Positions 34,029 to 43,709 of a DNA stretch of 64,000 bases are shown piece by piece. Every line of letters begins with the position of its first letter. Position 1 is the stretch's first letter. Location of the stretch: assembly GCF_001182045.1 (NCBI RefSeq), contig NZ_CVTY01000007.1, positions 310,001-374,000 on the forward strand, read 5' to 3'. A program made the position numbers and the translations under genes. Origin of the DNA: Dakarella massiliensis (lineage in GTDB: Bacteria; Pseudomonadota; Gammaproteobacteria; Burkholderiales; Burkholderiaceae_F). Below the pieces are notes generated by a model. That model worked only from the letters and a program-made list of their open reading frames with translations, was not told the DNA's origin and ran no database searches.

Positions 34029-34095
34029 AGCACATTTATTTTCTCAGGCTCCGGCACCGCGCCGGGCCTCTGTGTCAGTCAGAAAGGAATTGAAA

Positions 34096-35274
34096 ATGGA
34101 TCTGAAAGCTTTGGCAGAAAAATTCAACCCGTACCAAATCGAGATGCGCCGCTATTTCCACGCGCATCCTGAGGCAAGCACGAAAGAAGTGGAGACCGCG
34201 AAGAAGATCCGCGAAGAACTGACCCGAGCCGGGATCGAATGGCGCCCCTGCGGAAAGAACCTGACGACCGGCACGCTGGCCACGATTCACGGCGGAAAGC
34301 CCGGCAAGACTTTCCTGCTCCGCGGCGATATCGACGGCCTCTCCGTGAAGGAAAAGACCGGTCTCCCCTTCGCGAGTGAGAACGAAGGCTTCATGCATGC
34401 CTGCGGTCACGACTGCCATATCTCGATGCTCCTCACCTCGGTGATGATCGCGAACAGCATCAAGGATGAAATCCCCGGCACGATCAAGTTCATCTTCCAG
34501 CCGGCTGAGGAAGTGGCGCTCGGCGCCCTCGATATGATGGCGGACGGTGTTCTGGACGGCGTCGACGGGATGTTCGGCATGCATGTGTGGTCCGAACTCC
34601 CCGCGGGGACCGTGTCGCTTGAAGCGGGCGGCCGCATGGCGGCAACCGATCAGTTTGAAATCACGATCACGGGAAAGTCGGGCCACGCGGCGCTCCCTCA
34701 TAAGTGCGTTGACGCCACGCCCTGCATGGCAGCCACCATCATGGATCTGCAGACCGTCGTGAGCCGCCAGGTGAACCCGGTGAGCCCGCTCGTTCTCACG
34801 GTCGGCAAGGTCACGTCCGGCACCCGCTGGAACGTGATCTCGGGATCCGCGAAGATCGAAGGCACGGTGCGGTCGCTTGACTCCGAGTCCCGCGATATGG
34901 CGGAAGAGTCCGTCAAGCGGATTGCCGCGAACACCGCCGCTTCCTACCGCTGCACGGCCGAGGTGAAGTATGACCGCCTCTGCGACAACGTCTATAACGA
35001 TCCGGAAATCACCGCGTTCGGGCGCGAGGCCGCGAAGACGATCCTCGGGCCTGACTCGCTTCCCAACACGCCTCCCACGATGGGGGGCGAAGACTTCGGC
35101 TTCTACTGCAGCAAGGTAAAGGCCGCGTTCGCGCTCTTCGGTGTCGGAAACGCCGCCTGCAACGCCTGCTATCCGCAGCATTCGGACCACTACACGGTGG
35201 ACGAGTCAACACTCGTGAAGGGTGCCCTGCTCTCCGTTCAGACGGCACTTAACTTCCTGAACGCCAATAAGTAA
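34096..35274 (+). CDS. M20D-family amidohydrolase, copy 1
   Basis: A 392-residue metallo-aminoacylase/amidohydrolase of the hippurate-hydrolase/IAA-amino-acid hydrolase group. It has RRYFHAHPEAS, the metal cysteine and histidines in MHACGHDCHISML, the catalytic glutamates in FQPAEEVALG, GMHVWSELPAGT, a lid dimerisation domain in the middle, and a C-terminal GGEDFGFY...HSDHY. The ATG at 34096 is preferred to one eight codons earlier because AGAAAGGA lies about eight bases before it. It cleaves an amide between an amino acid and an acyl or aryl group; the substrate is unknown. It ends at a strong terminator, separate from copies 2 and 3. Confidence 0.9.
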   Translation: MDLKALAEKFNPYQIEMRRYFHAHPEASTKEVETAKKIREELTRAGIEWRPCGKNLTTGTLATIHGGKPGKTFLLRGDIDGLSVKEKTGLPFASENEGFMHACGHDCHISMLLTSVMIANSIKDEIPGTIKFIFQPAEEVALGALDMMADGVLDGVDGMFGMHVWSELPAGTVSLEAGGRMAATDQFEITITGKSGHAALPHKCVDATPCMAATIMDLQTVVSRQVNPVSPLVLTVGKVTSGTRWNVISGSAKIEGTVRSLDSESRDMAEESVKRIAANTAASYRCTAEVKYDRLCDNVYNDPEITAFGREAAKTILGPDSLPNTPPTMGGEDFGFYCSKVKAAFALFGVGNAACNACYPQHSDHYTVDESTLVKGALLSVQTALNFLNANK

Positions 35275-35325
35275 CGCGGTCTGCCTGACCGCAGCTCACT
35301 CAGGAACAGCGTCTGAGTGACACGG

Positions 35326-35365
35326 AACCTCCTCCGGGGCCCCCGCCCTGCGAGGAGGTTTTTTA
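35326..35365 (+). terminator. Terminator after M20 copy 1
   Basis: An AACCTCCTC / GAGGAGGTT stem with a 17-base loop, followed by T6. Confidence 0.88.
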
Positions 35366-35453
35366 TGAGGTATTGCCTGCCGCCGCCTCATCCGTCCGGT
35401 TCCCTCCCAGTTAATATGGGTAGAACACAAAAATTCCGAGGGAGGGCATCGAG

Positions 35454-36638
35454 ATGAACTTCAATTCACTTCGCGACGCGTATCGCGAGGAAGTGATCAG
35501 GACGCGCCGCGCTTTCCACGCGGCCCCTGAACTCAGCGGACACGAGTGGAACACGGCTGAGCGGATCCGCGCCATTCTCACCGGCGCCGGCATCCCCTGG
35601 GAACCCTGCGGAAAGGAGCTTCCGGGGACGCTTGTCACGATCGACGGGGTCGGGGCCGGAAAGACCATTCTTCTCCGCGCGGATATCGACGCGCTGCCGA
35701 TTGAGGAAAAGAATGATGTTCCCTATAAGAGCGGCACGAAGGGCGTCATGCATGCCTGCGGACACGACTGTCACATCGCGATGCTGCTTTCCGCCGCGAA
35801 AATCCTTTACGAACACCGGACCGTATTCCCGGGCCGCGTGAAATGCATCTTCCAGCCAGCGGAGGAAAACTCCCGGGGCGCGCTCGACATGATCGCGGGC
35901 GGCGTGCTGGACGGCGTCGACGCAGCATTCGGAATTCACGTCGCCTCCTCGGTCCCCTCCGGAAAAATCTCTCTTCGCAGCGGTCCTTCCACCGCCGCGA
36001 CTGACTTTTTCAGGATCACGCTTCACGGCAGAAGCGGTCACGCCGCGCGGCCTAACGAATGCATCGATGTCGCGCCCGCGATTGCCTCTCTCATTCTTGA
36101 ACTTCAGACCATCAAGAGCCGGGAAGCGAATCCGCTTTCCACTCTTGTTCTCACGATCGGCACCATTCATTCCGGCTCCCGCTGGAACGTGATTTCAGGC
36201 GAAGCCTCGATCGAAGGCACCGTGCGGAGCTATGACCCCGCGGTCCGGGATCTCGCGGAAACATCCCTCAGGCGGATTTCAGAGGATGTCGCGGCCGCCT
36301 ACCGCTGCACTGCTGATGTGACTTACGACCGGCTCTGCGACGCGCTGGTGAACGATGAAACGATGACCGGCATCGCCCGCGAGGCGTCCGAAGCCGTGCT
36401 CGGTGCCGGGAGCACCGTGATCAACCCGCCTGGCACCGGGGGCGAGGATTTCAGTTTCTACGCAAACCTCGTGCCGTCATCCTTCGCACACCTCGGGGTC
36501 CGGAACGAGGCCTGCGGCGCTGATAAGCCGCAGCACTCGGACTGCTACATGGTGGATGAGAACGCGCTCGTTGATGGGGCCCTGATTCACGTGGCCACCG
36601 CGCTTCGCTTCCTCACCGGGTCCACTGGACAGAATTAG
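35454..36638 (+). CDS. M20D-family amidohydrolase, copy 2
   Basis: A 394-residue paralog of copies 1 and 3. It shares RRAFHAAPELSG, MHACGHDCHIAMLL, FQPAEENSRGA, the G-x-H segment FGIHVASSVPSG and the C-terminal GGEDFSFYA...HSDCYMVDE. All metal and catalytic positions are present. It starts after a GAGGGAGGG ribosome site and lies 20 bases upstream of copy 3, so the two are in one operon with the carbonic anhydrase. The substrate-facing loops differ from copy 1 (HVASSVPSG against HVWSELPAG), which suggests a different substrate. Confidence 0.9.
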   Translation: MNFNSLRDAYREEVIRTRRAFHAAPELSGHEWNTAERIRAILTGAGIPWEPCGKELPGTLVTIDGVGAGKTILLRADIDALPIEEKNDVPYKSGTKGVMHACGHDCHIAMLLSAAKILYEHRTVFPGRVKCIFQPAEENSRGALDMIAGGVLDGVDAAFGIHVASSVPSGKISLRSGPSTAATDFFRITLHGRSGHAARPNECIDVAPAIASLILELQTIKSREANPLSTLVLTIGTIHSGSRWNVISGEASIEGTVRSYDPAVRDLAETSLRRISEDVAAAYRCTADVTYDRLCDALVNDETMTGIAREASEAVLGAGSTVINPPGTGGEDFSFYANLVPSSFAHLGVRNEACGADKPQHSDCYMVDENALVDGALIHVATALRFLTGSTGQN

Positions 36639-36658
36639 CTTAAGGGACGACTGAGACT

Positions 36659-37834
36659 ATGCTGGATATTGAAAAGCTGAAAACCGAGTACGAACCGTAC
36701 GTGATCCGCATGCGGCGCTACTTCCACGCGCACCCTGAGCTGAGCGGAAAAGAACTGAAGACGTCCGCCGCGATCCGCGCGGAACTGGACACCGACGGGA
36801 TTGAGTGGCGGAGCTGCGGAAAGAGCCTCCCCCAGGGGACGCTTGGGACAATCAAAGGCGATCTGCCCGGAAAAACAATCCTCCTCCGGTCCGATATCGA
36901 CGCGCTCCCGATCACGGAGGCAACGGGACTTCCCTTCGCGAGCGAGAACCCGGGCGTCATGCACGCCTGCGGGCATGATAACCACATCGCGATGCTGCTC
37001 ACCGCGGCGAAAATCCTCGCCGCGAACCGGCATGAGGTCCGGGGCACAGTGAAAGTCCTCTTTCAGCCCTCCGAAGAGGTCGGAATCGGCGCTCTCGACA
37101 TGATTGAGGACGGGGCGCTCGAAGGCGTCGACGCGGCGTTCGGCATGCACGTGTGGCCTGAACTCGCGTCCGGCCGCGTGTCGCTCGAACCCGGTGCCCG
37201 GATGGCGTCCACGGATCGCTTCCGCATTGATATCAAAGGAAAAGCGGGGCACGCCGCGGCGCCTCACCTCTGCGTCGACGCGACACCGGCCGCCGCGTTC
37301 CTCGCCGTGAACCTGCAGACACTTGTCTCCCGATCAATCAGCCCAGCATCTTCCGCCGTACTCACGGTCGGAAGCCTCCACTCAGGCTCCCGCTGGAACG
37401 TCACCTCCGGGAGCGCCTACCTCGAAGGCACCGTGCGGTGCTTTGATGAAGAGACCCGGAAGACGATCCGCGAAGGCATGAAGAGAATGGCGGACCGTGT
37501 CGCTGCAGCTCATGGCTGCACCGCGGAAACCACCTACACCTGGCTCTCGGACGCGGTGATCAATGACCCGGATATCACGGCGGTCGCGGCAGGGGCCGCA
37601 GCCGAAGTGCTCGGACCTGACGGTCTCGCCTCTGTTCCCCCGACGCTTGTCGGCGAAGACTTCGCGGTCATCATGCATCGGGTGCCGTCCGCTTTCGGAT
37701 TCTTCGGTATCCGGAACGAAGCCGTGAAGGCTGCTTTCCCGCTTCACACGGATCGCTGCACGTCTGACGAATCCGGCTTGATCGGCGGGGCATTGATTTT
37801 CGTGAAAACCGCGTATAACTTTCTTAATCGGTAA
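36659..37834 (+). CDS. M20D-family amidohydrolase, copy 3
   Basis: A 391-residue third paralog. It has RRYFHAHPELSG, MHACGHDNHIAMLL (Asn replaces the Cys found between the two histidines in copies 1 and 2), FQPSEEVGIGA, GMHVWPELASG and a C-terminal GEDFAVIM...PLHTDRCT in which the usual HSD is HTD. Metal ligands (Cys, His, Glu, His) look preserved. It follows copy 2 by 20 bases and precedes the carbonic anhydrase by 23. It is closer to copy 1 than to copy 2 in the HVWPEL segment. Confidence 0.9.
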   Translation: MLDIEKLKTEYEPYVIRMRRYFHAHPELSGKELKTSAAIRAELDTDGIEWRSCGKSLPQGTLGTIKGDLPGKTILLRSDIDALPITEATGLPFASENPGVMHACGHDNHIAMLLTAAKILAANRHEVRGTVKVLFQPSEEVGIGALDMIEDGALEGVDAAFGMHVWPELASGRVSLEPGARMASTDRFRIDIKGKAGHAAAPHLCVDATPAAAFLAVNLQTLVSRSISPASSAVLTVGSLHSGSRWNVTSGSAYLEGTVRCFDEETRKTIREGMKRMADRVAAAHGCTAETTYTWLSDAVINDPDITAVAAGAAAEVLGPDGLASVPPTLVGEDFAVIMHRVPSAFGFFGIRNEAVKAAFPLHTDRCTSDESGLIGGALIFVKTAYNFLNR

Positions 37835-37857: not shown

Positions 37858-38448
37858 ATGGGCACCATGAATGGATATAACACCGGGCTCCGGGCCCGCG
37901 AGGCGCTCGAGCGGCTGAAACTCGGGAACGACGCCTATGTGAACGGGCAGCGGTTCGGGGATCTCTCAGACGCCCGAAGGCTCGATACCGCGGAGCACGG
38001 CCAGAACCCGTACGCGGTGATTGTCTGCTGCTCAGACTCACGCTCGATCCCCGAAGTCGCTTTTTCCTGCGGTATCGGCGATATCTTCGTGATCCGGGTG
38101 GCCGGCAACGTGATCGATAACCATCAGCTCGGGTCGATCGAATACGCCGCCTCCCACCTCGGGATCCGCCTCATCGTGGTGCTCGGCCACACGCACTGCG
38201 GCGCGGTGGGTGCCGCGATTCACCACGCGCCCGAGGGGTACGTGAAGACAATCACGGATGAAGTGCTGAAGGCGATCGGGGACGAGAAGGACGAGTACAA
38301 GGCCGCCTGCCTCAACGCCGAAGGCAGCGTAAAGCGGATTGAGACGTCGCTTGAGATTCAGCGGGAAGAGTCTGAGCATGGACTCGCTGTTCTCCCCGCT
38401 ATCCTCGATATTGAGACCGGCAAAGTCAGATTCCTCCGGGAACTCTAA
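37858..38448 (+). CDS. Beta-class carbonic anhydrase
   Basis: A 196-residue cytosolic zinc enzyme that interconverts CO2 and bicarbonate. The zinc ligands and Asp-Arg dyad are in VCCSDSRSIPE (Cys, Asp, Arg) and GHTHCGAVGAA (His, Cys). IRVAGNVIDNHQLGSIEYAA is typical of the beta class. An AAGAGG ribosome site precedes the ATG. It is the last gene of the M20 copy 2-copy 3 operon and ends at a strong terminator. Its pairing with amidohydrolases is unexpected; it may supply bicarbonate or trap CO2 released in that catabolism (inference). Confidence 0.93.
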   Translation: MGTMNGYNTGLRAREALERLKLGNDAYVNGQRFGDLSDARRLDTAEHGQNPYAVIVCCSDSRSIPEVAFSCGIGDIFVIRVAGNVIDNHQLGSIEYAASHLGIRLIVVLGHTHCGAVGAAIHHAPEGYVKTITDEVLKAIGDEKDEYKAACLNAEGSVKRIETSLEIQREESEHGLAVLPAILDIETGKVRFLREL

Positions 38449-38526: not shown

Positions 38527-39801
38527 ATGACCGCAGTCCTTATCTTCCTCGCGACACTTCTTCTCGTGATCACCCAGCCCCGGGGACTCGGGATCGGCTG
38601 GAGCGCGGCAGCCGGCGCCATCGCGTCACTCCTTCTCGGAACCGTGACGCTCTCGGATATCCCGACCGTCTGGTCCATCGTCTGGAATGCTTCCGGGACG
38701 CTCATCGGGCTCATCATCATCACGCTTATCCTCGATGAAGCGGGGTTCTTCAAGTGGTGCGCGCTGAAGGTCGCACGGGCTTCAGGCGGAAGCGGCGCGA
38801 AGCTTTTCACGCTCATTATTCTTCTCGGCGCAGTCATGTCCGCGTTTCTCGCGAACGACGGCGCGGTGCTGATTCTCACCCCGGTGGTGCTCGCGCTTCT
38901 CACGCCGCTCGGCGTTCCGAAGGTGCATCAGCTCGCTTTTGTAATGGCAGCGGGGTTCATCGTGGATACTGCGAGCCTTCCGCTCGTGAGCTCCAATCTC
39001 GTCAACATTATTTCAGCGGACTTTTTCCGCTTCACGTTTACGGACTATGCCCGCGTGATGATTCCGGTTGATATCGCGTCAGTTGCCGCAAGTCTCGCGG
39101 TGCTCTGGATCGTTTTCCGGCGCAGCATCCCGAAGCGGGTCGATATCACGAAACTCCCCGCGCCGGACTCCGTGATCCGGGATCCCCTCCTCTTCCGAGC
39201 GGGGTGGGTGGTGCTCACGCTGCAGCTCGTCTTCTGCTTCGCATCATCCTTCCTCCGGATTCCGATTTCCGCCGTGACGCTGACATCCGCCGCCATCCTT
39301 CTCCTCCTCTCACGGAGGAACCGCGTGGTGCCTGCGGGGCAGGTACTGAAGGACGCCCCCTGGTCCATCGTGATCTTTTCGCTTGGCATGTATCTCGTGG
39401 TGTACGGCCTGCAGAATGACGGCGCGACCTCTCTCCTCTCCGCCGCGCTCAGCCGAATCGGAGACTCGGGAACCGGAGCCGCAGCGTTCGAGGCGGGATT
39501 CATCGCGGCCGCGCTTTCTAGCGTCATGAATAACCTCCCCTCCACCATGATCGGGGCGCTTTCGATCGACGCGGCGTCCGTTTCTGACGCGGTCCGGACC
39601 GCGATGGCCTACGCGAACGTGATTGGCTGCGACCTCGGGCCGAAGATCACTCCGATCGGAAGCCTGGCCACGCTTCTCTGGCTCTCGCTTCTCTCGCATA
39701 AAGGGATCCGTGTCACCTGGGGTTACTACTTCAGGCTCGGCGTCATTCTTACGATCCCGGTGCTCGCGGCGGCGCTCGCCGCCCTCGCGCTCGTGATCTG
39801 A
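38527..39801 (+). CDS. arsB: Arsenite efflux permease ArsB
   Basis: A 424-residue inner-membrane arsenite exporter, colinear with E. coli ArsB (429). Shared blocks include QPRGLGIGWSAAAGA, FLANDGAVLILTPVV, FVMAAGFIVDTASLPLVSSNLVNIISADFF, FSLGMYLVVYGL, and YANVIGCDLGPKITPIGSLATLLWL. It works alone or with ArsA. No arsR, arsC or arsA lies beside it. There is no recognisable ribosome site; the 20 bases before the ATG are TC-rich, and the terminator of the operon before ends only 24 bases away. The start is fixed by alignment. Confidence 0.94.
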   Translation: MTAVLIFLATLLLVITQPRGLGIGWSAAAGAIASLLLGTVTLSDIPTVWSIVWNASGTLIGLIIITLILDEAGFFKWCALKVARASGGSGAKLFTLIILLGAVMSAFLANDGAVLILTPVVLALLTPLGVPKVHQLAFVMAAGFIVDTASLPLVSSNLVNIISADFFRFTFTDYARVMIPVDIASVAASLAVLWIVFRRSIPKRVDITKLPAPDSVIRDPLLFRAGWVVLTLQLVFCFASSFLRIPISAVTLTSAAILLLLSRRNRVVPAGQVLKDAPWSIVIFSLGMYLVVYGLQNDGATSLLSAALSRIGDSGTGAAAFEAGFIAAALSSVMNNLPSTMIGALSIDAASVSDAVRTAMAYANVIGCDLGPKITPIGSLATLLWLSLLSHKGIRVTWGYYFRLGVILTIPVLAAALAALALVI

Positions 39802-39876: not shown

Positions 39877-41676
39877 TCAGCCAAGCTTCACAAGTTTCCA
39901 GATCTGCGAGATCGTTTCCGGAGCCGGTTCTTTCGCCCGGTCCGTGAAGTGCGTGTGAAGCAGGTGATGCGCGAGTTCGCTGTTCGGTTTTCCGAGGAAC
40001 TCGTCATAGAGCCTGATCACATCCGGGTTCTCGTGACTCTGACGGTAAACGCGGGCGCGGTCGATCTGATACACGGTCTTCGCGCGGGCTGCGGCGTGCG
40101 AGAGGTACGAATTCTTGATCCGCGCCGTGCCGCCGCCATCGATACAGCCGCCGGGGCAGGCCATCACTTCGATGAACTGATAATCCGCCTTTCCGGACTT
40201 CACGCGCTGGATCAGTTCTTCCGCGTTCCGGAGACCATTCGCGACCGCAATCTTCACGCTGCCGCCAGCACCGAGATCGACCGTCGCTTCCTTGATCCCC
40301 TCCATGCCGCGGACCGGGAGATACTCGATCCCGTCGAGATTCTTCCCCGTCACCACGTGATGCACCGTGCGGAGAGCAGCTTCCATCACCCCGCCCGTCA
40401 CACCGAAAATCATGCCGGCGCCGGTGTTTTCCGCCATGAAGGGCGAATCGTATTTCGAGGGTTCGAGAGTCGGAAGGCTGATACCGTAGCGGCGGAGAAT
40501 GCGCGCGAATTCCCGGATCGTGATCACGAGATCCGTGTCCGGCATACCGTCACGCGCGAGCTGCGGCCGCGCCGCTTCCTCTTTCTTTGCCGTGCAGGGC
40601 ATGATCGAAATAAAGCGGAGCTTCTTCGGATCGATGTTATGGGTCTTCGCGAACCACGTCTTCGCGAGCGCCCCGAAAATCCCCTGCGGCGAGCGGGTCG
40701 TGGAGAGATTCCCCATCATCTCGGGGTGATGCTTTTCCACGTAGGTCACCCAGCCCGGGCAGCAGCTTGTCATCATCGGAAGGGTGCCGCCCGTACGGAG
40801 CCGGTTCAGGAACTCGTTCCCCTCCTCCATGATCGTGACGTCCGCACCCCAGTTCACGTCGCAGACAAAGTCCGCTCCGAGCATCTTGATCGCGGTGATC
40901 AGCTGCCCCTCGGTGTTCTTTCCGGGCTCAAGACCGAATTCATCACCGATCGTCACCCGGGCGGACGGCGCGAAGGCGACGATCGTCTTGATTTCCGGAT
41001 CGTCAAACCAGTCGATCGCGGTGTCGCACTGATCCTTTTCGCCAAGCGCCCCCGTCGGGCAGACAAGCGTGCACTGGCCGCACTCAACGCAGCCCGGAGA
41101 GTCGATCCAGCGATCCGCCCCGGCGATCCCGACACCGCGCTTCGTCCCGATGTCATCAAGCGTCAGAGCGCTGATCCCCTGCACTTTGCGGCAGACCTCA
41201 ACGCAGCGCCCGCAGCGGATGCACTTATTCACGTCGCGTAGCAGTCCGTGCGCGCTCGTATCCACCGGACGCTTCGCGATGAAGCGGCCGTTGCAGCTGT
41301 TATTCTGCAGCCCCACATAGAGCGCCACGTCCTGCAGCTCGCAATTGCCGTGACGGACGCAGGACGCGCAGTCCTGGTCATGATCAGAGAAGATCCACGC
41401 AGCCTGCTGACGCTGGCGGTGACGGACTTCAGGCGTATGCGTGAAGACCGCCATGCCTTCGAGCATCGGCGTCGTGCAGCTCGTCACAAGCTCCCGTTTC
41501 CCGGGCGTTTCTTTCCGCTCGATCTCCGTAATGCACATGCGGCAGGTGCCAGGCGTGTGATCCAGCGGCAGCAGCGCGCAGAGCGTCGGAATGAAAATCC
41601 CGAGGCGCTTCGCGACCTGCAGAATCGTTTCCCCTTCCTCAAACGTGACGGGGCGGTTATTGATCCAGGCGTTCAT
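39877..41676 (-). CDS. [FeFe] hydrogenase catalytic subunit (HndD/HydA type)
   Basis: A 599-residue modular hydrogenase. The N-terminal [2Fe-2S] domain has Cys33, 45, 48 and 67, and the His-ligated [4Fe-4S] domain has His99, Cys103, 106 and 112. Two further [4Fe-4S] clusters use Cys152/155/158/162 and Cys196/199/202/206. The H-cluster is complete: L1 TSCCPGW (303-309, with the proton-transfer cysteine), L2 MPCTAKKEE (Cys361) and L3 MACPGGCIDGGG (Cys507, Cys511). The C-terminal small-subunit-like helix (LLHTHF) follows. Modular composition fits a multisubunit, bifurcating-type group A enzyme. The start ATG overlaps the upstream stop (TGATG). Maturases HydEFG are not in the window. Confidence 0.93.
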   Translation of the reverse strand: MNAWINNRPVTFEEGETILQVAKRLGIFIPTLCALLPLDHTPGTCRMCITEIERKETPGKRELVTSCTTPMLEGMAVFTHTPEVRHRQRQQAAWIFSDHDQDCASCVRHGNCELQDVALYVGLQNNSCNGRFIAKRPVDTSAHGLLRDVNKCIRCGRCVEVCRKVQGISALTLDDIGTKRGVGIAGADRWIDSPGCVECGQCTLVCPTGALGEKDQCDTAIDWFDDPEIKTIVAFAPSARVTIGDEFGLEPGKNTEGQLITAIKMLGADFVCDVNWGADVTIMEEGNEFLNRLRTGGTLPMMTSCCPGWVTYVEKHHPEMMGNLSTTRSPQGIFGALAKTWFAKTHNIDPKKLRFISIMPCTAKKEEAARPQLARDGMPDTDLVITIREFARILRRYGISLPTLEPSKYDSPFMAENTGAGMIFGVTGGVMEAALRTVHHVVTGKNLDGIEYLPVRGMEGIKEATVDLGAGGSVKIAVANGLRNAEELIQRVKSGKADYQFIEVMACPGGCIDGGGTARIKNSYLSHAAARAKTVYQIDRARVYRQSHENPDVIRLYDEFLGKPNSELAHHLLHTHFTDRAKEPAPETISQIWKLVKLG

Positions 41677-43709
41677 CAGTTCGTCCCCCTCGCGGATGCG
41701 GTCAGGTTTTCGGTGTCAGGGCTGCGATGCAGCGCTTCGTTTCCGGGAATCGGGCGCGGTGTAGCGACAGCCATCATGCGGTAGCAGCGCATGCAGCGGT
41801 CCGCTTCGTAGCGGGCGACGTCGTCTGAAAACGTCTGATCCACCTCGCGGAAATTGCACTCACGGGATTCCACAGGAATCGTCGGAACGCGGTGCCGGGG
41901 CATCTTTTCCATCGGGACCGTCGGGCCGCCGTCCTCAAGAAGCTCACAGTCGCGGATGATTTCCCCCATCCTCGCGCGGGGCGTAAAGCCGACTGACCCG
42001 CGGGAGAGGTATTCATCAATCGAATTCGCGGCCTGCTGCCCTTGCGCAAGACCGCCGATCAGCGTGGTCGGTCCCGTCGCGCAGTCGCCGCCCGCGAATA
42101 CGCCGGGGCGCGTTGTGGCAAGCGCCGGATTCACGCTGATGTTGCCATAGCGGTCCAGAATCACGCCGTCCGCGTCTGAAAACACGTCACGCTCGAGCTT
42201 CTGCCCGATCGCGGCGATCACCATGGCGCACGGCACATCAAATTCGCTTCCTTCCACCGCGCGGACCGCTGGGCGGCCGCGGGAATCCGTGCCCCGGATT
42301 TCCATCTTCGTGAGTTTCACGCCGGTGACGTGCCCGTTTTCGGAGAGAATCCCAACGGGGTTCGTGAGGAAATGGAATTCCACGCCTTCATCCCGCGCGG
42401 CCTCAATTTCCTCGCGGTCAGCGGAGGCCTGGGCCTCGGTGCGGCGGTAAACGATATGCACTTTCCCGGTCGCGATACGCTTTGCCGTGCGGCAGCAGTC
42501 CATCGCGACGTTTCCGCAGCCCACCACGACGACGTCCCCATGGATCTGGGGCGGGAGGCCGTCCGCAACCGATTTCTCGATTTCAAGAAGGAAGTCGATG
42601 CCGTTCTGATAGCCGGCGAGCGACCGGTCCTCAGCGGGAAGCCCAAGGTACGCGCCTTCGGCGCAGCCGATTCCGAGGAACACGGCGCCGTACCCGTCAT
42701 CAAAGAGACTCGACACCGTGAAGTCGCGTCCTAGCCGCTGTCCGAAGTGCCATTCACCGCCGAGCTCTCCGATCGCGTCCGTTTCTTTCTGAAGCAGCCC
42801 CTTCGGGAGCCGGTACGGGGGAATGCCGCGAAGCGCCATGCCGCCCGCCTTTTCATCCTTATCGAAGATATCGACTGGGTAGCCCTTCATGAGAAGGTGA
42901 TACGCGCAGTTCAGCCCTGCGGGACCCGCGCCGACCACGGCCACCCGGGCCTTTGAGTAGTCGATCACCGGATCCATGCCGTGGAAGAGGTCCGAAATCG
43001 CCGCTCCGGCGTTATCCGACACATAGCGCTTGATATCCTTGATCGCGACGGAACGGTCAACATAATTCCGGCGGCACGCCGCTTCGCACGGGCGCACGCA
43101 GACGCGGCCGCAGGTGGCGACAAGCGGATAGTGGTGCAGGAGCACCCCCGCCGCGAGATCCGGATGCCCGTCCTTCACGTAGTCGATATAGCGGGGAATA
43201 TTCACGTGCGAGGGGCAGGCCTCGATGCACTTCGCCGTGATCGTCATATACATATCGCCTTTCAGCGGCGCCGCGGTGCTGATCAGGCGGTCCCTGAAGT
43301 ATTTCAGCGCCCCGATCATCGCTTCCGGGGTCGTGCGTCCGATGCCGCAGAGACTCGTGTACTTCATCTGCTCAGCGGAGTCGAGCATGTGGTCCCAGTT
43401 GACCGTATCGCCCCGGCCTTCCACCGCGTCGCGGAGGCACTCCGCGAGCAGAATCGACCCGGTGCGGCAGGGCGTACAGGCGCCGCACGAATTCTCGCGC
43501 GCGAGCGCGTAGTAGCGAAGCAGCACTCCCGCGAGCGACACATTGGGGTCGAAGACGAGGAAGCCGAAATTACAGACCACCGCGTCCACCGGATTTCCCG
43601 GGTTAAAGGTCTCGATCTTATCGAGCGGCAGATCGAGGGGCGCGGCGCGCCCCCCTTCCGTGTTGTCGTACTTAACGCCTTTCCAGACGCCGTATAGGAT
43701 CTTTCGCAT
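41676..43709 (-). CDS. NuoF iron-sulfur domain fused to NfnB/GltD-type flavoprotein
   Basis: A 677-residue fusion. Residues 1-142 match the C-terminal iron-sulfur part of NuoF/HndC/HydB: SCGACTPCRTG (Cys75, 78, 81) with the fourth ligand in SLCGIG (Cys121). The FMN- and NADH-binding Rossmann domain that normally precedes it is absent. Residues about 155-235 hold the GltD/NfnB cluster domain (cysteines 161, 165, 200, 204, 208, 212), then FAD binding (VVGAGPAG, 258-265; GGDCATGP, 541-548) and NAD(P) binding (VVGCGNVAMD). A C-terminal CMRC (639-642) resembles half a ferredoxin. An AAGAGAA ribosome site precedes the ATG. It is first in an operon with the hydrogenase; it probably couples H2 to NAD(P)H and ferredoxin pools. 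Confidence 0.88.
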   Translation of the reverse strand: MRKILYGVWKGVKYDNTEGGRAAPLDLPLDKIETFNPGNPVDAVVCNFGFLVFDPNVSLAGVLLRYYALARENSCGACTPCRTGSILLAECLRDAVEGRGDTVNWDHMLDSAEQMKYTSLCGIGRTTPEAMIGALKYFRDRLISTAAPLKGDMYMTITAKCIEACPSHVNIPRYIDYVKDGHPDLAAGVLLHHYPLVATCGRVCVRPCEAACRRNYVDRSVAIKDIKRYVSDNAGAAISDLFHGMDPVIDYSKARVAVVGAGPAGLNCAYHLLMKGYPVDIFDKDEKAGGMALRGIPPYRLPKGLLQKETDAIGELGGEWHFGQRLGRDFTVSSLFDDGYGAVFLGIGCAEGAYLGLPAEDRSLAGYQNGIDFLLEIEKSVADGLPPQIHGDVVVVGCGNVAMDCCRTAKRIATGKVHIVYRRTEAQASADREEIEAARDEGVEFHFLTNPVGILSENGHVTGVKLTKMEIRGTDSRGRPAVRAVEGSEFDVPCAMVIAAIGQKLERDVFSDADGVILDRYGNISVNPALATTRPGVFAGGDCATGPTTLIGGLAQGQQAANSIDEYLSRGSVGFTPRARMGEIIRDCELLEDGGPTVPMEKMPRHRVPTIPVESRECNFREVDQTFSDDVARYEADRCMRCYRMMAVATPRPIPGNEALHRSPDTENLTASARGTN

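Follow-up and report, generated by a model that had tools for sequence, protein, structure and literature searches.

A two-gene [FeFe]-hydrogenase of Dakarella massiliensis with a GltD-type flavoprotein partner, a candidate H2:NADP(H) oxidoreductase

The gene pair and its domains

The stretch of DNA analyzed here (the window) comprises 64,000 nucleotides of Dakarella massiliensis contig NZ_CVTY01000007.1, positions 310,001 to 374,000. On its minus strand it encodes a group A [FeFe]-hydrogenase catalytic subunit, HydA, together with a flavoprotein in which the [4Fe-4S] domain of a NuoF subunit is fused to a GltD-type module for flavin adenine dinucleotide (FAD) and nicotinamide adenine dinucleotide, with or without its phosphate (NAD(P)). 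A first-pass annotation made from the sequence alone had singled out these two open reading frames (ORFs), and both were found exactly at the positions given there. The following features were assigned, in window coordinates:

39877..41676, minus strand: hydA, [FeFe]-hydrogenase catalytic subunit, group A, 599 aa (ORF list, domain and family models, ligand check)
39937..40095, minus strand: HydA residues 528-580, fused small-subunit domain (PF02256)
40132..40989, minus strand: HydA residues 230-515, H-cluster domain (PF02906; ligands C305/306, C361, C507, C511)
41434..41664, minus strand: HydA residues 5-81, NuoG-like [2Fe-2S] domain (PF13510)
41676..43709, minus strand: NuoF[4Fe-4S]-GltD fusion flavoprotein, 677 aa (ORF list, domain models, homologue alignments, structure model)
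41784..41795, minus strand: fusion C639-M-R-C642, matching the NfnB-type RCxxC, at the C-terminus as in StnC/NfnABC
42039..42947, minus strand: fusion residues 255-557, FAD and NAD(P) Rossmann domains of the GltD/NfnB/StnC type (Pyr_redox_2, PF07992)
43008..43238, minus strand: fusion residues 158-234, two-[4Fe-4S] domain (Fer4_20; C161, C165, C200, C204, C208, C212)
43029..43031, minus strand: fusion K227 codon, equivalent of StnC K170 and the NfnB Glu (alignment)
43284..43526, minus strand: fusion residues 62-142, NuoF-type [4Fe-4S] domain (PF10589, 3.7e-19; C75, C78, C81, C121)

The fusion gene comes first and hydA second, and their stop and start codons share one base at 41676. A domain search of HydA returned PF02906 (1.4e-88), PF02256, Fer2_4, NADH-G_4Fe-4S_3 and Fer4, and the protein clears the NCBIfam model for group A [FeFe]-hydrogenases (TIGR02512) with 480.6 bits against a cut-off of 405.95. 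In the window protein as well as in intact relatives, the ligands of the [2Fe-2S] and accessory clusters (C33/45/48/67, H99/C103/106/112, C152/155/158/162/196/199/202/206) and of the H-cluster (C305/306/361/507/511) are in place, in agreement with the initial description of a subunit with all accessory clusters and a complete H-cluster. HydA could be aligned over its full length with CpI and with HydA from two bifurcating complexes, 7q4v and 8a6t. By analogy to complex I and HydABC, the partner is expected to dock with its NuoF-type [4Fe-4S] domain onto the [2Fe-2S] domain of HydA.

The fusion protein keeps the NuoF cysteines 75, 78, 81 and 121 and carries an NfnB/GltD-like FAD-NAD(P) module, and the flavin mononucleotide (FMN) domain PF01512 was not found in it by domain search, all as first described. 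Its residual NuoF tail reaches 47 bits with the nuoF_fam model, far under the cut-off of 559. Matches to GltD-family models are strong (E-values of 1e-107 to 1e-83) yet remain under the curated cut-offs, and both PF07992 and PF14691 match. An alignment of 18 homologues from Pseudomonadota, Thermodesulfobacteriota, Bacillota and Actinomycetota shows no variation at C75, C78, C81, C121, C161, C165, C200, C204, C208, C212, C639 and C642. K227, which aligns with K170 of StnC and with a Glu of NfnB, is invariant in this alignment and in one of 14 homologues, and is a probable ligand of the FAD-proximal cluster by analogy to StnC K170. A YRR motif is formed by Y421, R422 and R423.

The C-terminal CMRC had been proposed as an additional site; the motif is present, but it is probably the NfnB-type RCxxC shifted from the N- to the C-terminus, with weak matches of 2.9 and 5.5 bits to NfnB N-termini and a strong, co-linear match in 9bov/8oh5/9n5u. 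As the CxxC of StnC also follows the FAD domains whereas the RCxxC of NfnB is N-terminal, C639 and C642 were read as the ligand pair of a GltD cluster.

An AlphaFold2 model of the fusion (mean predicted local distance difference test score of 87) superimposes on StnC/NfnABC chains with Z-scores of 38-40 over about 470 residues, on NfnB with 28-31 and on GltD with 26-31. This comparison covers mainly residues 157-609, the assignment of the NuoF-like part resting on sequence evidence. Among proteins of solved structure, the StnC/NfnA subunits of Stn-type (NfnABC) transhydrogenases come closest to the FAD module, both in sequence and in fold.

Distribution and conservation

The first-pass annotation had proposed a search for the same fusion and neighborhood in other genomes; they were recovered from relatives, Alphaproteobacteria and Desulfobulbaceae, and a shorter form from Firmicutes and Actinobacteria. 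All five genomes of the genus and many others of the same family contain the full-length fusion, and at every locus read it is directly followed by hydA; close named matches, from Sutterella and Aphodousia, place the genome among Sutterella-like Burkholderiaceae. Since it is kept in every Burkholderiaceae relative examined, the pair is neither a chance arrangement nor an assembly artefact. It also occurs in Pleomorphomonas koreensis, Rhodovulum sp. PH10, a Xanthobacteraceae isolate and metagenome-assembled genomes of Desulfobulbaceae and Verrucomicrobium. In Lachnospiraceae, Oscillospiraceae, Coriobacteriia and Pseudoramibacter, hydA is preceded by a shorter fusion of about 610 aa, which is about 32% identical and has the same clusters and no FMN domain. 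Two loci, from a Fermentithermobacillaceae (L050:4831-7860) and a Porphyromonadaceae genome (L066:4705-7851), encode beside hydA a protein of about 1,010-1,050 aa in which a full NuoF including PF01512 is fused to GltD.

In a HydA tree, the proteobacterial pairs form one fully supported group and the Firmicutes/Actinobacteria pairs another, with the FMN-bearing ones beside the latter; the tree is unrooted and two rows labeled as FMN-less begin at or near contig ends, so that it is compatible with one FMN loss as well as with two. Both hydA and the fusion gene are under purifying selection: for HydA, the fusion, HydE and HydF, dN/dS (the ratio of nonsynonymous to synonymous substitution rates) is about 0.01-0.10 when near-identical congeners are compared and 0.13-0.26 for more distant congeners, whose synonymous sites are near saturation.

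At five further loci (L029, L033, L034, L035 and L097), the genes next to relatives of the fusion encode NuoG-like or longer proteins whose similarity to HydA is confined to its N-terminal part, and the NuoF[4Fe-4S]-GltD adaptor seems to act with other enzymes as well. At L049:5588-7341, a hydA beside a NuoF-GltD-type fusion is itself divided into two ORFs, be it by a frameshift, a sequencing error or a real split.

Genomic context

The genome (2.48 Mb, 7 contigs, 98.8% complete) was searched for further subunits. The HydA of the pair is its sole [FeFe] catalytic subunit; a second [FeFe]-hydrogenase, as several relatives have, was looked for and not found. A separate FMN-bearing NuoF/HydB gene, named at the outset as the finding that would speak against the compact arrangement, was sought genome-wide with PF01512 and was not detected. 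The NuoE/HydC domain PF01257 likewise gave no match in this genome or across five genomes, in line with the suspected lack of a HydC-like subunit. These results support the initial picture of a compact H2/NAD(P)H device made of two subunits, with neither FMN-NuoF nor HydC. At the locus, no NfnA partner was found in the two-gene unit or beside it, no ferredoxin gene adjoins the pair, no glutamate synthase large subunit lies beside it within the window, and nothing among the flanking genes points to a third subunit.

Upstream, the pair is neighbored by a gene for a RidA-type protein. On the other side follow genes for an ArsB-type transporter (38527-39801) and a beta-carbonic anhydrase (37858-38448), which lie between hydA and three tandem genes of M20-family amidohydrolases (peptidases) on the plus strand (34072-37834).

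On another contig of the same genome (C5, locus L149:2804-7355), porC, porA and porB are followed by a gene for a 549-aa GltD-Fer4 protein above the PRK12771 cut-off. Here a GltD-type NADP adaptor replaces the delta subunit of a pyruvate oxidoreductase, and, in parallel to the hydrogenase pair, a GltD adaptor is combined with a low-potential enzyme.

The second [FeFe]-hydrogenases of relatives (L131:7841-10249, L133:8405-10194, L134:10472-12950) have a separate small subunit, which begins with a twin-arginine-like start. They often occur with a cytochrome b-like gene and are preceded by genes for an AMP-binding ligase (AMP, adenosine monophosphate) and a coproporphyrinogen oxidase-type radical S-adenosylmethionine (SAM) protein.

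A proposed H2:NADP(H) oxidoreductase

The pair likely forms an H2:NADP(H) oxidoreductase of two subunits, which is probably non-bifurcating; by gene content, the pair fits group A2 of the HydDB classification. Its anatomy, its conservation and the absence of FMN-NuoF and HydC can be stated with high confidence, the non-bifurcating coupling to NADP(H) with moderate confidence. Within this explanation we infer complex formation, the electron path, the use of NADP(H) over NAD(H), the lack of bifurcation and the direction of the reaction.

In the proposed mechanism, a hydride would be exchanged between NADP(H) and the FAD in the GltD module. Single electrons would then pass from the FAD to the FAD-proximal cluster, probably ligated by K227, and to the second GltD cluster, which C639 and C642 would complete. 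From the GltD clusters, the unbranched path would lead over the retained NuoF [4Fe-4S] cluster to the NuoG-like [2Fe-2S] cluster of HydA, along the HydA cluster chain and to the H-cluster. In effect, the FMN/NADH head of a HydB/NuoF subunit would have been swapped for a StnC-like FAD/NADP(H) head, with the fusion as the adaptor. Mutagenesis and cryo-electron microscopy indicate that the FAD of StnC is a non-bifurcating entry port for NADPH and that K170, which ligates the cluster next to this FAD where NfnB has a Glu, is essential, a K170A change in StnC lowering its activity with NADPH (PMC10482914).

The redox potential of NADPH (E' of about -380 mV; PMC9304861, Table 1) is compatible with such a route. 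According to a Nernst estimate at pH 7, H2 formation from NADPH is downhill under about 7 kPa H2, and therefore no bifurcation would be needed in a gut with H2 removal, while H2 formation from NADH (-280 mV) would need about 3 Pa H2. The presence of porCAB and the second GltD-type protein suggests a route from pyruvate over NADPH to H2.

Several points weigh against this proposal. The preference for NADP(H) is argued from kinship and the YRR motif only, and a literature search turned up no assay of the pair or of any group A2 enzyme. R300, which is conserved among the fusion homologues, occupies the position of the NfnB Arg that contacts N5 of the FAD, and residues alone do not exclude bifurcation; the Lys at position 227 is a correlate of non-bifurcation, not a proof of it. 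HydA keeps ferredoxin-like clusters, and ferredoxin could be a further partner. Finally, HydG is missing (see below), and assembly of the H-cluster may be abnormal or may fail altogether.

Alternative explanations

Since an FMN site is lacking, the first-pass annotation had assigned electron splitting to the FAD of the NfnB-like module. This FAD would bifurcate or confurcate among NAD(P)H, ferredoxin and the H-cluster, and the pair would be a minimal bifurcating hydrogenase, as the GltD/NfnB homology, the N5-contacting Arg position kept as R300 and the ferredoxin-like clusters of HydA might indicate. However, the module proved closer in sequence and fold to the non-bifurcating FAD subunits of StnC/NfnABC than to NfnB, its FAD-proximal cluster has a Lys instead of the Glu, the pair contains no NfnA-type partner, HydBC core or second acceptor site, and a single linear path is expected for the two GltD clusters and the NuoF cluster. 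FAD-based bifurcation was therefore not upheld and is considered unlikely.

Alternatively, the fusion might be mainly a ferredoxin:NADP(H) module within a non-bifurcating complex, in which HydA would exchange electrons with both ferredoxin and NADP(H) and which would balance reduced ferredoxin and NADPH against H2. The CpI-like cluster chain kept in HydA and the pyruvate oxidoreductase operon of the genome are consistent with this scenario, but that oxidoreductase is equipped with a GltD-type adaptor of its own, which includes ferredoxin domains, for which reason free ferredoxin may be minor, and the pair has no adjoining ferredoxin gene; we regard this explanation as improbable.

The role put forward for HydDB group A2, according to which NAD is reduced by H2 oxidation and glutamate synthase thereby receives reductant (PMC5037454), agrees with the GltD homology but is very unlikely here, as the window shows no large subunit of glutamate synthase next to the pair, the fusion has a NuoF-type cluster suited to HydA, and its fold is closer to StnC than to GltD.

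Maturation genes

To the proposed check for HydEFG, the genome gave a divided answer. The hydE and hydF genes lie together about 10 kb past the end of the window (contig C7:384241-386834), with both proteins over their model cut-offs. HydG was undetectable by model search in this genome and in four congeners, some of them assemblies of two and three contigs, and also in five genomes of two other related genera, which brings the number to 10 genomes. Relatives in four further genera yielded HydG matches at 820-914 bits, and HydF was over its cut-off in 17 of 17 HydA-bearing genomes checked.

A HydG overlooked by its model was considered and rejected: the HydG protein of a relative, used as query, gave only HydE-level matches in the HydG-lacking genomes. 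The BATS domain common to HydG, BioB and ThiH was not found over its cut-off in those HydG-lacking genomes that were tested. Comparison of the neighborhoods of HydG-lacking genomes revealed no gene common to all of them that could be a conserved replacement beside hydEF. The radical-SAM gene near the second hydrogenase of relatives was dismissed as a substitute, being of the coproporphyrinogen oxidase type and occurring in HydG-bearing genomes too. When hydG presence and absence were placed on the tree of the fusion protein, three changes were needed, and strongly supported branches force all three; this gene tree suggests that hydG was lost repeatedly among hydrogenase-bearing relatives.

Five clostridial acetogens were noted earlier to be without hydG and to have atypical candidate genes, and HydE and HydF alone give about 1% activation in vitro (PMC9431212). 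A literature search on HydG-lacking bacteria and on assays of this hydrogenase architecture returned few matches. It is quite possible, at a little less than an even chance, that the genus and two related genera mature an active [FeFe]-hydrogenase without HydG, that the carbon monoxide (CO) and cyanide ligands are made by an unrecognized enzyme or scavenged, and that HydG was lost more than once while the pair stayed under purifying selection. That the hydrogenase is never matured and the pair kept for another redox task or decaying would agree with the 10 genomes and with the loss of all [FeFe] activity upon hydG deletion in Clostridium thermocellum (PMC4355364), but is highly improbable given the intact H-cluster ligands, the low dN/dS of HydA (about 0.02 for close and about 0.2 for distant congeners, HydE and HydF being similarly low) and the retention of HydF.

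Significance

Group A2 is a widespread type of [FeFe]-hydrogenase in gut bacteria that has no assigned reaction. A genome without a complex I NADH head, HydBC or another [FeFe]-hydrogenase offers a clean test of NADPH-H2 exchange versus bifurcation. If the pair is non-bifurcating, the GltD module would be reused as an interchangeable NADP adaptor in StnC, in porCAB-GltD and in HydA-GltD. If the absence of HydG is confirmed in cultured strains, it would challenge the accepted need for all three maturases and provide natural organisms for finding out where else the CO and cyanide ligands can come from.

Comparison with known systems

Similar gene pairs were suspected to be present in sequence surveys already, and this is borne out by HydDB group A2, named "glutamate synthase-linked (putative)", which is described with a GltD-type neighbor without NuoF and an undetermined role (PMC5037454). 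By adjacent-gene content, the architecture is thus of a recognized but never-assayed kind, and a 2025 study of gut hydrogenases still lists A2 among the types needing characterization (PMC12578642). The pair and A2 share a group A catalytic subunit beside a GltD-family protein without FMN-NuoF. However, the A2 rule considers the gene immediately downstream of hydA (PMC5037454), whereas the GltD gene lies upstream here, and its product still has a NuoF remnant, the [4Fe-4S] domain, which was also seen in the pairs examined from Bacillota and Actinomycetota. Ahead of this domain, the proteobacterial fusions have a longer N-terminal stretch than the Bacillota/Actinomycetota forms.

With the StnC/NfnA subunit of Stn (NfnABC; PDB 8oh5, 9bov, 9n5u), the fusion has in common a GltD-type module for FAD and NADP(H), a CxxC at the C-terminus and a Lys at the cluster-binding position; in StnC the module feeds electrons into a NuoG/HydA-like chain, and in the pair it would do the same. 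StnC, in contrast, is fused to its NuoG-like part and works with the FMN-bearing bifurcating core StnAB, while the pair has no StnAB/HydBC and its acceptor is a separate [FeFe]-hydrogenase, so that it resembles the input half of Stn and not the complex. From NfnAB (PDB 4ylf, 5jca), with which it shares the GltD/NfnB fold, FAD and two [4Fe-4S] clusters, it differs in the lack of NfnA, the Lys that replaces the Glu ligand of the cluster and the C-terminal position of RCxxC.

The Bfu family is defined by an FMN-bearing BfuBC core (PMC9304861). HydABC/Bfu complexes (PDB 7p5h, 7q4v, 8a6t) have a HydA homologous over its whole length and the NuoF [4Fe-4S] domain in common with the pair, which is devoid of their FMN domain (BfuB/HydB), of the thioredoxin-like [2Fe-2S] subunit HydC/BfuC and of the ferredoxin domain on the NuoF part. 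The fusions of L050 and L066 have the same order of NuoF [4Fe-4S], Fer4_20 and GltD domains and an adjacent hydA, but with an intact PF01512 FMN domain. These enzymes may still use NAD(H) and bifurcate, and could be candidates for coupling NAD(H), NADP(H) and H2.

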